From IMG/VR virus record IMGVR_UViG_3300047300_000061, positions 1-37,080 of that record: a stretch of 37,080 nt of DNA; one strand, written 5' to 3'. Source of the stretch: a virus. The stretch's first letter is position 1. Every line of letters begins with the position of its first letter. Below the pieces are notes generated by a model. That model saw only the letters and a list, made by a program, of their open reading frames with translations, searched no databases and was not told the DNA's origin. This document shows, piece by piece, positions 737-37,079 of the stretch. A program made the translations under genes and the position numbers.

Positions 737-867
737 TTATCCACAAGTTATCAACACAAGGTAAAGTTATCCACAGATGAGCAACTATTGTGCCAGAGTT
801 GTCCACAGGTTATTAGTCTTGTATAAGACCTAAGTCTGTGGATAAGTACCACTACTGGTGTGGATAA
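737..867. other. DnaA-box cluster, putative replication origin
   Basis: Four exact consensus DnaA boxes (TTATCCACA) lie within 131 bp: 737-745 and 767-775 on the plus strand, 837-845 and 859-867 on the minus strand. Two one-mismatch boxes are TTATCAACA at 748-756 and TTGTCCACA at 799-807. The two halves face each other. AT-rich DNA, a hairpin (931-950) and a repeated TGTAAAGAT (about 955-974) follow on the right. This is the signature of a DnaA-dependent origin or DnaA-regulated site, so host DnaA is the likely ligand. No phage DnaA or lambda O-like gene was recognised. Confidence 0.8.
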
Positions 868-985
868 GAGTTGCCAAGGGGTAGGGTAGGGTAAGGGTCG
901 ATCGTGGCTTGTAGGCCGTTTAAATGGCTTATACAGTACTACCACTGTATGTTGTGTAAAGATTTGTAAAGATGCTCAAAAGTGG

Positions 986-3540: not shown

Positions 3541-3645
3541 ATGTTTCATAGATGCTTATATGTAACATACTATAAGTACTTACTATAAGTATCTTATAAA
3601 GAGACATAGAAGCATAGAAGAAATGTCTTAGGTACTTTAAAGTAC
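3541..3645. repeat. Inverted imperfect copy of the terminal repeat
   Basis: 3565-3578 and 3578-3591 are exact reverse complements of the two 14-mers at 103-116 and 89-102. 3623-3645 is the reverse complement of 37-59 with one mismatch in 23. Order and spacing are conserved (29 bp between blocks at the terminus, 31 bp here), so this is one degenerate inverted repeat of about 100 bp. It lies in the leader downstream of the promoter at 3493. Because it is inverted, its RNA sense equals that of the leftward leader read through 136 to 37. Confidence 0.8.
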
Positions 3646-3703
3646 TATAGATATGTGTCTAATTGTGTCTAACTTCTGTTAACTTTCATCAACAGGTAAC
3701 ATC

Positions 3704-4635: not shown

Positions 4636-6234
4636 GTGGCTAGTAAGTTTCTCAGGCACATACCATGTGAGCACTGCGGTAGCAAGGACGCTAACAGCCT
4701 GTATGACGATGGACACACCCACTGCTTCAGTTGTGGTACGACAGAGCACGAAGGTGCTTATGATGAGCGAACGGTAATGAGGGACGCTGTAGCGCCCACA
4801 AAGAAGGCTATTATGGACATTCGAGGAACATTCAAATCAATCCCTGACCGAGGTATCAGTCAGGCAACTTGTGAGAAGTATGGAGTAACAACCGATGGAG
4901 ACTATCAGTATTATCCTTACACTGACGGAGATGGAGTTAGAACGGCTGTTAAGCAACGCAGTGTTCCTACAAAGCAATTCTCCATCTCAGGAGACTTCGG
5001 GCGAGCAACACTATTCGGTCAGCATCTCTTTCACGCTGGAGGAAAAGCTATCACCATCACAGAAGGAGAGCTTGACGCTCTCGCAGCTTTCCAGATGCAA
5101 GGATCTCTCTACCCTACAGTGAGTATCAGGAACGGTGCTCAGGCTGCTTTAAAGGACTGTAAGGCACAGTATGAGTGGTTGAACAGCTTTGACTCTGTGG
5201 TGATCTGCTTTGATGCTGATGAACCGGGTAAGAAGGCAGCTAAGGAAGTGGCTGAACTGTTCGGTAACAAGGCCAAGATCATGCAACACAAGAGTGGACA
5301 CAAGGATGCTTGTGACTACCTGATTGCAGGGGCTACCAAGGACTTTGTTAACGAGTGGTGGAGGGCTAGTCCTTATGTGCCTGACGGTATCGTAAACGCT
5401 GCTGACCTCTGGGAGGAAATCTCCAAGCCAGAGCCAGTGGCAGAGGCACAGTACCCTTGGAAGGGCTTGAATAAGCTCTTGTACGGAATCAGGCCAGCAG
5501 AGTTGATTACAGTCACCGCAGGCAGTGGTTTGGGTAAGAGTCAGTTCTTGCGGGAGATCTTGTATAACCTTTTGCAGACTACAGATTGGAAGATAGGTGG
5601 TATGTTCTTGGAAGAGTCAACACGCAAGACAGCACGGAGTATTATGAGTCTCCATGCCAACAAGCTGTTACACTTACCTGATACACCTACCACTGAACAG
5701 GAATTGAAGGAGGCTTTCGATGCTACCTTGGGAAGTAATCGCATTTATCTGTTTGACCATTTCGGCAGTAGTGACGTGGACAACATATCCAACAGAATCC
5801 GCTACATGGCTAAAGCTTGTGACTGTCGTGTTGTCTTTCTCGATCACATTTCCATTGTTGTTAGCGGTCAAGACCTTGGTGACGAGCGTAAAGCTATTGA
5901 TAACATGATGACAAAGCTCCGCACACTTGTGCAAGAGCTGAACATTACCCTGATCTGCGTGAGCCACTTGCGTAGACCACAAGGCAACCAAGGCCATGAG
6001 GACGGTGGTAGTGTGTCATTGTCACAGTTGCGAGGCTCTGGAGCCATTGCACAACTGAGCGATGCAGTGATCACGCTGGAGCGGAACAGCATGGCTGAGA
6101 ACGAGGAAGAGCGTCACTTGACCAAGATTGCAGTGGCGAAGAATAGGTACAACGGGGAGACTGGCCCTGCTTGTAAGTTGAAGTACAATGGGTATACTGG
6201 ACGTATGCTCGAAGTTGAAGAGGAGGCATTATGA
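4636..6234 (+). CDS. Primase-helicase, T7 gp4/Twinkle type (532 aa)
   Basis: The start is GTG at 4636, behind AAAGGAGAAG. Domains in order are a zinc-binding primase module (C11, C14, C30, C33), a TOPRIM fold (E143 in ITEGELDAL; DAD at 193-195 in ICFDADEPG), and a DnaB/RecA-type hexameric helicase with Walker A GSGLGKS (296-302), Walker B around D403 (VVFLDH) and a conserved GSGAIAQLSD segment. All catalytic motifs are intact, so this should be a bifunctional enzyme that unwinds DNA and primes the lagging strand with the family A polymerase at 6742. Length is close to T7 gp4 (566 aa). It opens the replication block. Confidence 0.95.
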   Translation: MASKFLRHIPCEHCGSKDANSLYDDGHTHCFSCGTTEHEGAYDERTVMRDAVAPTKKAIMDIRGTFKSIPDRGISQATCEKYGVTTDGDYQYYPYTDGDGVRTAVKQRSVPTKQFSISGDFGRATLFGQHLFHAGGKAITITEGELDALAAFQMQGSLYPTVSIRNGAQAALKDCKAQYEWLNSFDSVVICFDADEPGKKAAKEVAELFGNKAKIMQHKSGHKDACDYLIAGATKDFVNEWWRASPYVPDGIVNAADLWEEISKPEPVAEAQYPWKGLNKLLYGIRPAELITVTAGSGLGKSQFLREILYNLLQTTDWKIGGMFLEESTRKTARSIMSLHANKLLHLPDTPTTEQELKEAFDATLGSNRIYLFDHFGSSDVDNISNRIRYMAKACDCRVVFLDHISIVVSGQDLGDERKAIDNMMTKLRTLVQELNITLICVSHLRRPQGNQGHEDGGSVSLSQLRGSGAIAQLSDAVITLERNSMAENEEERHLTKIAVAKNRYNGETGPACKLKYNGYTGRMLEVEEEAL

Positions 6235-6741: not shown

Positions 6742-8454
6742 ATGCGTATTGTCTTGGACATTGAGACAAACCTAGCACATGACAAGATTCATGTTGCTGT
6801 AACCAAAGACATTGACACCGGAGAAGTAAAGACATGGAAAGTAGCCGACAACCTGCGGGAGTATTTAAAGGGCGTGTCGTTGATAGTCATGCACAACGGC
6901 ATAAGTTTCGATGCACCAGTATTGAATCGCTTATGGAAGACGAAGATTCGTTTGAATCAAGTTTACGATACATTGATAGTAAGTCGTCTTTTAGACCCGA
7001 GCCGAGAGACAGGGCACAGCCTCGAAGCGTGGGGGCGAACTCTAGGGTTCAACAAGATTGACTACACAGCCGTATGGCAGTGGATGATGGACAGGAAAGA
7101 GGAGTATAAAGGTGAGTGTTTCGACTTCCCTATTAGCGACCTTCTTAATCATTATTGCATTAGGGACGTTGAAGTTACTGCTAAGTTATATCTTCACTTG
7201 GTTAGTGAACTGGAGCAAAAACAGTTTAGCCAAGAATCGGTAGACTTAGAGCATCGTGTTGCATCAATCATTGCCAAGCAAGAAAGGGCAGGGTTCAAAC
7301 TTGACCAGATCCACACAACCTGTTTACTTACTGACATCAAGTCAAAAGTGGCAGGAATATATGAGCGAATGCAAGAGAGATGGCCTCCGGTCACCCTTGA
7401 GCGATACTCTGACAAAACTGGAAAGAGACTCAAGGACAGCGTGGTTACTTTCAACCCCGGAAGTAGACAACAGATCGGAGAGCGACTGAAGGAACTTGGG
7501 TGGAAGCCCAAGGAGTTTACCGAGACAGGACAGCCTAAGATTGATGAGACTGTGCTCGCTAATGTTAAGATACCAGAGGCTCAGATCATTGCTGAGTACC
7601 TGATGCTTAACAAGCGTATCAGTCAAATTGAATCGTGGCTAGAAGCTGTAGGTAAAGATGGTAGGGTTCACGGTAAGGTCATCACTAACGGTGCTGTTAC
7701 AGGCCGGATGACGCACAGTAGCCCTAACATGGCTCAGATCCCTAATGCAGGTTCCATCTATGGGCCTGAGTGCCGGGAATGCTGGACTGTTGAGGATGGT
7801 AATGTGTTGGTAGGTTGCGATGCTTCAGGTTTGGAGCTTCGTATGTTGGCTCACTATATGGAAGATGAAGATTATGTCAGAACTGTCTGTGAGGGATCAT
7901 CTAAAGATGGAACGGATGTTCACACTGTTAACCAAAGAGCAGCAGGACTCGCTTCTCGAGATAATGCAAAGACTTTTATCTACGCCTTCCTCTATGGTGC
8001 GGGAGATGCAAAGATTGGTAGTATTGTGGGAGGCAGTGCAAGAGATGGATCAAAGCTCAAAGCCAAGTTCCTCGCTCAAACGCCAGCCCTCGCAAAGCTC
8101 CTCGAAAAGATTAAGAAAAGCGCAGCAAGAGGTTTCTGCAAAGGACTTGATGGGAGGCGTATTTGGATTCGCTCAGAACACGCTGCCCTCAATTCGCTCC
8201 TCCAAGGTGCTGGAGCAGTCGTGATGAAGAAGGCTTTGGTCTTGTTTGATGACAAGGTTACAGCCAACAAGTGGCAGATTAAGTATGTCGCTAATGTTCA
8301 CGATGAGTTTCAGTTGGAGTGTCCTAAAGATATTGCTGAAGAAGTAGGCAAAGCTGCTAGACTATCCATCATTGAGGCAGGTGAGGCTTTCAAGCTTAGA
8401 TGCCCCTTAGACGGGGAGTACAAGATTGGAAGAAATTGGAGAGAAACACACTAA
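6742..8454 (+). CDS. Family A DNA polymerase with 3'-5' exonuclease (570 aa)
   Basis: ATG at 6742 follows AAGGCTTGT. The exonuclease domain has Exo I D6/E8 (DIET), Exo II N52/D57, and Exo III Y138/D142. The polymerase domain has motif A D360 (CDASGLELR), motif B R406/K410 (RDNAKTFIYAFLYG) and motif C H520-D521-E522 (VHDEF). All metal-binding carboxylates are present, so both activities should work. At 570 residues it is about 130 shorter than T7 gp5, mostly upstream of motif A, where T7 carries the thioredoxin-binding thumb insertion. Processivity is therefore probably achieved differently. Confidence 0.95.
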   Translation: MRIVLDIETNLAHDKIHVAVTKDIDTGEVKTWKVADNLREYLKGVSLIVMHNGISFDAPVLNRLWKTKIRLNQVYDTLIVSRLLDPSRETGHSLEAWGRTLGFNKIDYTAVWQWMMDRKEEYKGECFDFPISDLLNHYCIRDVEVTAKLYLHLVSELEQKQFSQESVDLEHRVASIIAKQERAGFKLDQIHTTCLLTDIKSKVAGIYERMQERWPPVTLERYSDKTGKRLKDSVVTFNPGSRQQIGERLKELGWKPKEFTETGQPKIDETVLANVKIPEAQIIAEYLMLNKRISQIESWLEAVGKDGRVHGKVITNGAVTGRMTHSSPNMAQIPNAGSIYGPECRECWTVEDGNVLVGCDASGLELRMLAHYMEDEDYVRTVCEGSSKDGTDVHTVNQRAAGLASRDNAKTFIYAFLYGAGDAKIGSIVGGSARDGSKLKAKFLAQTPALAKLLEKIKKSAARGFCKGLDGRRIWIRSEHAALNSLLQGAGAVVMKKALVLFDDKVTANKWQIKYVANVHDEFQLECPKDIAEEVGKAARLSIIEAGEAFKLRCPLDGEYKIGRNWRETH

Positions 8455-8654: not shown

Positions 8655-9071
8655 ATGGATAACAAACCAGCCAAAGTCTCCGGTCAACTCTTCTGGGCTA
8701 ACTGGATGAAAGAGTTCAACACCAAGTTCAACGAGGACAACACCAAGTACGAATGTACACTCGGTATGCTGTCTGACAAGGCTTGCGAAGCGTTGAAGGC
8801 ACAAGGTATTGTGATCAAGAACAAGGACACAATGGGTAACTACATTGTAGGTAAGTCCAAGTTTGTGTTCGAGCCTGTGGACACTGAAGGCAACGCTGTT
8901 GACATTAGCAAGATTGGCAATGGCACTAAGGTGACAGCCTTGGTTGGCTCCTACCGTCACAAGATGTCAGCTAAGTTCGGTGCTGCTCCTTCTATCGGTA
9001 AGATCATCGTGACTGACTTGGTTGTCTACGGTGAGGGCGCTGAAGGCGAAGATGACTCAGACGTGCTCTGA
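8655..9071 (+). CDS. ssDNA-binding protein, phage type (138 aa)
   Basis: ATG at 8655 lies behind AAAGGAAATTAAATC, 65 bp after the tRNA. The 138-residue protein has an OB-fold-like alternation of strands with basic and aromatic residues (LFWANWMKEF, SYRHKMSAKFG) and ends in an acidic tail (EGAEGEDDSDVL). Such a tail in T7 gp2.5 and bacterial SSB recruits replication partners. It sits between polymerase and exonuclease, matching the functional order in T7-like phages. The gp2.5-like assignment rests on the tail, size and position rather than a diagnostic motif. Confidence 0.75.
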   Translation: MDNKPAKVSGQLFWANWMKEFNTKFNEDNTKYECTLGMLSDKACEALKAQGIVIKNKDTMGNYIVGKSKFVFEPVDTEGNAVDISKIGNGTKVTALVGSYRHKMSAKFGAAPSIGKIIVTDLVVYGEGAEGEDDSDVL

Positions 9072-9834
9072 CGCTACCACTGAGCCTAAGATTGCACTAG
9101 TCGATGCTGACTTTCTTGTCTACCGTATTGGGTTCAGTACCGAGGATGAGCCAGTCGGCATTGCCAAGGCTAGATTAACGGAGTGGTTAGAAGACTTTAT
9201 CTATGTGAATCTCAAGGCTGATGAATACAAAGCGTGGATCACAGGTAAATCTAACTACCGTTATGACATTGCCAAGACAGTGCCATACAAAGGCAACCGT
9301 AAGGATGTTCAACGACCTAAGCACTACGAAGCCCTACGGGAGCATCTAGTCAAGCGTCACGAAGCTATCCTTACAGTTGGCGAGGAAGCTGACGATACCG
9401 TAGCCATTGAATCGACCAAGATGTTAGATAACTGCTGGATCGTTCATGTGGATAAGGACTTGGATCAGCTTCAAGGATGGCACTACAACCCTGTAAAGGA
9501 TGAGAGATACTATGTCGATGATTTTAACGCCTACAAGTCTTTTGTCACGCAAATACTTACGGGGGATCGGATTGACAACATTCCGTGCTTGGCAGGTATT
9601 GGCCCTAAAAAGGCTGAGAAAGCTCTCAAAGATGCAAAAACTAAAGAACAGCTTTTACAAGCAGCGTGGGAAAAGTATCAAGAACACGGTCATTCGATGG
9701 AATACTTTACAGAACAAGGGCAGCTCTTGTGGCTAAGACGACATGAAGGAGAGTTATGGCAACCGGACGTAAATTTACTGCCAAACAAGTTGCAACAAAG
9801 TACGGATTCCGTAGCGGACTCGAAGAGCGCATAG
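9052..9834 (+). CDS. 5'-3' exonuclease, FEN/T7 gp6 type (260 aa)
   Basis: The start at ATG 9052 is chosen over the upstream TTG at 9022 because GAAGGCGAAG precedes it. It overlaps the ssDNA-binding gene by 20 bp. Metal-binding acidic clusters are LVDADF (D18, D20), EEADDTV and DKDLDQL, and a helix-3-turn-helix DNA-binding motif follows (DNIPCLAGIGPKKA). These are the landmarks of the FEN-like nuclease family that removes RNA primers and degrades host DNA. The last 79 bp overlap the endonuclease I gene in another frame. Confidence 0.9.
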   Translation: MTQTCSDATTEPKIALVDADFLVYRIGFSTEDEPVGIAKARLTEWLEDFIYVNLKADEYKAWITGKSNYRYDIAKTVPYKGNRKDVQRPKHYEALREHLVKRHEAILTVGEEADDTVAIESTKMLDNCWIVHVDKDLDQLQGWHYNPVKDERYYVDDFNAYKSFVTQILTGDRIDNIPCLAGIGPKKAEKALKDAKTKEQLLQAAWEKYQEHGHSMEYFTEQGQLLWLRRHEGELWQPDVNLLPNKLQQSTDSVADSKSA

Positions 9835-36953: not shown

Positions 36954-37079
36954 GGTGTCTTTAAGACATCAGCTACTTAAGCACTTAAAGTACTTTAAAG
37001 TATCTAAGACATAAAGAACTTAATAAGTTATTTATTATAAGTACTTATAGTAAGTTACTTATAGTATGTAACTTCTATG
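36954..37079. repeat. Terminal repeat, right copy
   Basis: Exact copy of bases 1-126; the final base of the window differs from the corresponding base 127. See left copy for composition. Confidence 0.95.

Follow-up and report, generated by a model that had tools for sequence, protein, structure and literature searches.

A conserved DnaA-box array shared by unrelated phages, a candidate initiation cassette for a T7-like replisome

A freshwater phage with a T7-like replisome carries a dense cluster of DnaA boxes that belongs to a conserved cassette common to unrelated phages. The cluster occupies positions 737-867 of the window, the whole 37,080-nucleotide stretch analysed here (positions 1 to 37,080 of IMG/VR record IMGVR_UViG_3300047300_000061). 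The most likely reading, to which we assign a probability of about 0.45, is an initiation cassette that binds DnaA, is accessory and can be exchanged horizontally between phages. Searches of an open-access library gave no description of such a cassette.

The cluster comprises four exact and two one-mismatch boxes. Exact copies of TTATCCACA lie at 737-745 (box 1, + strand), 767-775 (box 2, +), 837-845 (box 4, -) and 859-867 (box 5, -). Box 1 is also found at the same place in relatives. The one-mismatch boxes are TTGTCCACA at 799-807 (box 3, +) and TTATCAACA at 748-756 (+), the latter varying among relatives. The cluster exceeds chance by far. The best 150-bp cluster scores 10, whereas none of 60 dinucleotide-preserving shuffles gave a score above 3. 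The complete window holds five exact boxes, the single one outside the cluster being at 9447 (-), whereas such shuffles predict 0.35. The cluster announced by the sequence-only reading is therefore real. The boxes are not arranged in the alternating "opposed pairs" read there: four forward boxes are followed by two reverse ones, flanking a palindrome at 816-829.

Positions 1-126 of the window repeat 36954-37079 exactly, so that the record is a circular assembly and the cluster falls in a non-coding junction between a rightward early/replication arm and a leftward late arm. The identical 126-bp ends stop one base before the contig end and the cut falls in an AT-rich repeat. Ends of 127 bp occur in several relatives and probably reflect the assembler's k-mer. 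An AT-rich palindromic repeat occurs as inverted copies about 3.5 kb apart (33-135 and 3554-3649) and is common to relatives with and without boxes. The AT-rich DNA, repeats and hairpin noticed earlier near the boxes are present. AT-rich DNA lies upstream of them, and two hairpin-capable copies of ACACTATAGGTAGTGT (612-630 and 644-662) precede them. The latter are kept in relatives without boxes (L002 and L007) and are therefore not part of the box cassette. Downstream of box 5, a conserved G-rich flank, AAGGGGTAGGGTAGGG, and the CGTTTAAA motif extend over 868-925 (+). They are followed by two copies of the AT-rich direct repeat TGTAAAGAT (955-973, +), a possible unwinding element or promoter-upstream repeat. 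A similar repeat is kept in box-less relatives just before the early promoter, and no unwinding element specific to cassette carriers was identified. The promoter-like sequence TTGACT-17-TACACT (986-1014, +), located before the first early gene (1066), is a consensus match only, and promoter-like sites are no more frequent in the region than in shuffled sequences.

Relatives were gathered through the helicase, giving 80 related contigs, and many of them have the five-box layout in common while single boxes drift. Their alignment defines a conserved order: forward boxes, the palindrome GTCTTRTATAAGA(C/G), two reverse boxes, AAGGGG and the CGTTTAAA motif. The box spacing of 30/32/38/22 observed in the window recurs in several relatives. 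Among 58 non-redundant copies, and with at most two mismatches, box 5 is present in all and box 3 in 54, 41 of them in one register and 13 shifted by one base. Box 4, which is set by the search pattern, was left out of this conservation count. Substitutions in boxes 3 and 5 affect almost only positions 3 and 5, and rarely positions 1 or 6. These are changes that DnaA boxes are known to tolerate, and the variation is that expected of selected DnaA binding sites. Binding of host DnaA to the cassette is a well-supported inference. Being common to unrelated phages, the cassette looks like a selected means of coupling phage replication, or early control, to the host.

Comparison of close relatives spanning the same intergenic region shows that the cassette is not uniformly present. 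It is found in 11 of 26 informative relatives (ten match the core pattern and L054 was counted with a changed box 4). Two others carry only tandem GTTATCCACAG repeats, which are tandem 11-mers, and the remaining 13 have kept the flanks and have no boxes, a situation that the sequence-only reading had named as refuting its proposal. One of the box-less relatives, L002, encodes a helicase 98% identical to that of the window. Since half of the informative relatives lack boxes in conserved flanks, this replisome does not in itself require them. The idea that box-less relatives encode a substitute initiator was considered and rejected: among early genes of relatives with and without boxes, no family was found that replaces the cassette or tracks its presence or absence. 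Reverse four-box arrays of a different architecture occur near the early genes of two relatives (L042:1761-1841 and L072:163-243). The cassette is thus accessory, and different box arrays occupy the same region of related phages.

The cassette extends well beyond these relatives. A DNA search of phage records identified it in Limnohabitans phage DC31 (E 2e-20), a cultured, long-tailed phage of 76 kb (PMC12195039), at about 20.2 kb of its record. This match suggests Limnohabitans or related Burkholderiales as hosts. A pattern scan retrieved the cassette from 69 IMG/VR stretches, among them contigs of 70-83 kb and several lineages of 36-41 kb. Neither this spread to unrelated phages nor the conserved palindrome had been noticed in the sequence-only reading. 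A looser pattern of any three forward boxes matches at least 120 IMG/VR stretches, compared with one for the reversed control pattern; DnaA-box arrays therefore look widespread in uncultured viruses. Eight of 31 three-box records tested encode a gp4-type helicase (E below 1e-80). One uncultured viral contig (L113:12886-13204) shows three successive three-box matches within about 320 bp.

The central palindrome, GTCTTGTATAAGAC in the window (816-829), has the family form GTCTTATATAAGA[C/G]. This form equals the core GTCTTATATAAGAC of the published operator of SdhR, TCTTATGTCTTATATAAGACATAAGA, a regulator of the GntR family (GntR/HutC subfamily; PMC4494728); in the window, a single base departs from this core. 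The likeness is limited to this core. Unlike the published operator, the phage copies are set between DnaA boxes and lack the outer arms TCTTATG...CATAAGA, which are also absent at several host sites. Of 150 Burkholderiales genomes, 24 contain AGTCTTATATAAGAS, whereas its reversed control gives one; some of these sites precede mdh/gntR, aconitase and isocitrate dehydrogenase genes. In phage loci totalling 1.88 Mb and chosen independently of the palindrome (part of them selected for boxes, and some overlapping), the palindrome occurs 21 times for 0.2 expected, always beside DnaA boxes. One Burkholderiales MAG carries GAGTCTTATATAAGAGTCTGTGGATAAG (L203:5563-5586), in which the palindrome and a DnaA box immediately precede atpI, so that this host site resembles the phage core. 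Being AT-rich, the palindrome may match the host operator by chance.

The T7-like replisome described from the sequence is confirmed by profile matches. The window encodes a gp4-type primase-helicase (4636-6234, +; phrog_239, E 1.7e-194), a family A DNA polymerase (6742-8454, +; phrog_17) and an exonuclease (9022-9834, +; phrog_107), together with an endonuclease. Pfam and PHROGs searches gave no function for most of the small early proteins. A gp4-type helicase was detected in 24 of 33 related or cassette-bearing records (in one of them only partially, where the contig ends). Most of the records without a match are fragments, but two are larger, G416 (69.6 kb) and G417 (53.8 kb). T7-type RNA polymerase (PF00940) was not found in the window, in these 33 records or in ten further helicase-bearing box-array records, some of which are fragments; the positive controls, S-CBP3 and Pasto, were both matched. 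A T7-style transcription-primed origin is therefore unlikely here. The premise that phages with gp4/gp5-type replication normally start at transcription-primed origins needs correcting: it relies on a system that the window phage appears to lack, and such an origin is not the default to be expected here. The window phage resembles T7-type systems in its primase-helicase, family A polymerase and exonuclease but differs from them by the lack of this RNA polymerase and by the DnaA boxes at its divergent junction.

Under the initiation reading, host DnaA would bind the fixed array at the divergent, non-coding junction, made up of forward boxes, palindrome and two reverse boxes, and would open or bend the adjoining AT-rich DNA. 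The phage gp4-type primase-helicase could then load on the exposed strand and prime its own synthesis, and the family A polymerase would extend these primers. The cassette would in this way supply an origin for phages that have a T7-like replisome and no T7-type RNA polymerase. SdhR, a host TCA-cycle regulator, may bind the palindrome inside the array and tune the cassette to the metabolic state. The complete scheme, in which a mobile, SdhR-gated origin cassette common to unrelated freshwater phages connects a T7 gp4-type replisome with host DnaA, is improbable as a whole. The arrangement recalls bacterial oriC and DnaA-assisted plasmid or phage origins (E. coli oriC, pSC101, P1 oriR) in its clustered boxes, their fixed spacing and orientation and the adjoining AT-rich DNA. 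It differs from them in being tied to a gp4-type primase-helicase rather than to DnaB/DnaC or a plasmid Rep, in holding an SdhR-like palindrome and in being optional among close relatives.

The initiation reading is supported by the excess of the cluster over chance, the substitution pattern, the sharing by unrelated phages including DC31, the frequent gp4-type helicase and the undetected T7-type RNA polymerase. It is also supported by spacing and orientation that are fixed across relatives despite the drift of individual boxes, and by other box arrays (tandem 11-mers, reverse array) at the same place in relatives. In all 11 records of 36-40 kb that have a cassette or tandem array, the circular GC-skew origin lies at most 1.1 kb from it, at a place that is also the divergent gene junction. 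In DC31-like phages, however, the cassette lies 13-16 kb from the skew minimum and the skew follows gene direction. GC skew is consistent with an origin at the cassette but not diagnostic, and was set aside as proof for this reason. Against an origin stand the 13 box-less relatives, L002 among them, for which no replacement initiator gene was found, and the two larger carriers G416 and G417, where no gp4-type helicase was detected.

The sequence-only reading had proposed either DnaA-assisted helicase loading or titration of host DnaA. These two are inseparable by sequence, and a role in early gene regulation is a third possibility. The last is the main rival, although we consider it rather unlikely: binding ahead of the first early promoter, host DnaA together with an SdhR-like regulator would adjust early expression to the replication and metabolic state of the host, replication starting elsewhere or from host-RNA-polymerase transcripts. 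The cassette contains a transcription-factor operator core, usually faces the same way with respect to the rightward genes, and is followed in several lineages by a promoter-like site downstream of the palindrome (at about 170 bp in the window). It is moreover dispensable in relatives, and DC31-like phages carry it within a gene arm. However, the promoter calls are weak consensus matches that do not exceed those in shuffles, 120-170 bp is a long distance for direct control, and the same early promoter is kept in relatives without boxes. Five fixed boxes also exceed what most DnaA-regulated promoters need.

Titration is less probable still. Many phage copies could bind host DnaA and stop chromosome initiation, as the high box density in a multicopy genome and its optional presence among relatives would allow. 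Such a sponge needs no conserved spacing, orientation or central palindrome, and the window contains only five exact boxes. The element has dense DnaA boxes in non-coding DNA in common with datA-type titration loci, from which it differs by its strict conserved architecture, its operator core and its location on a phage. It is very improbable that the cassette is a captured or decayed piece of a host chromosomal origin devoid of phage function. Its oriC-like mix of boxes and its presence in a phage of a Limnohabitans host are compatible with such a relic, but the conservation pattern speaks against neutrality. Capture of a host oriC was rejected on several grounds: blastn against 399 Burkholderiales genomes returned only three short, marginal hits, three clustered forward boxes occur in none of 150 such genomes, and 20 regions upstream of dnaA in Burkholderiales (Limnohabitans itself was not identified among them) contain no cassette-like array. 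The core pattern was found in a single Burkholderiales genome, before atpI. A plasmid origin was also rejected, as no plasmid match was obtained. The remaining probability falls to other roles, such as partition or packaging.

To our knowledge, how replication starts in phages that possess gp4 and a polymerase but no phage RNA polymerase is not settled. As an initiation element, the conserved DnaA-box cassette would offer a concrete and testable answer, and the cultured pair formed by DC31 and its host Limnohabitans sp. DCL3 (CP171842/CP171843) makes its function accessible to experiment. The cassette would make phage replication depend on the host initiator and, perhaps, on central metabolism. 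If the SdhR-gated origin proves true, phage replication would respond to the energy state of its host as well as to host replication.
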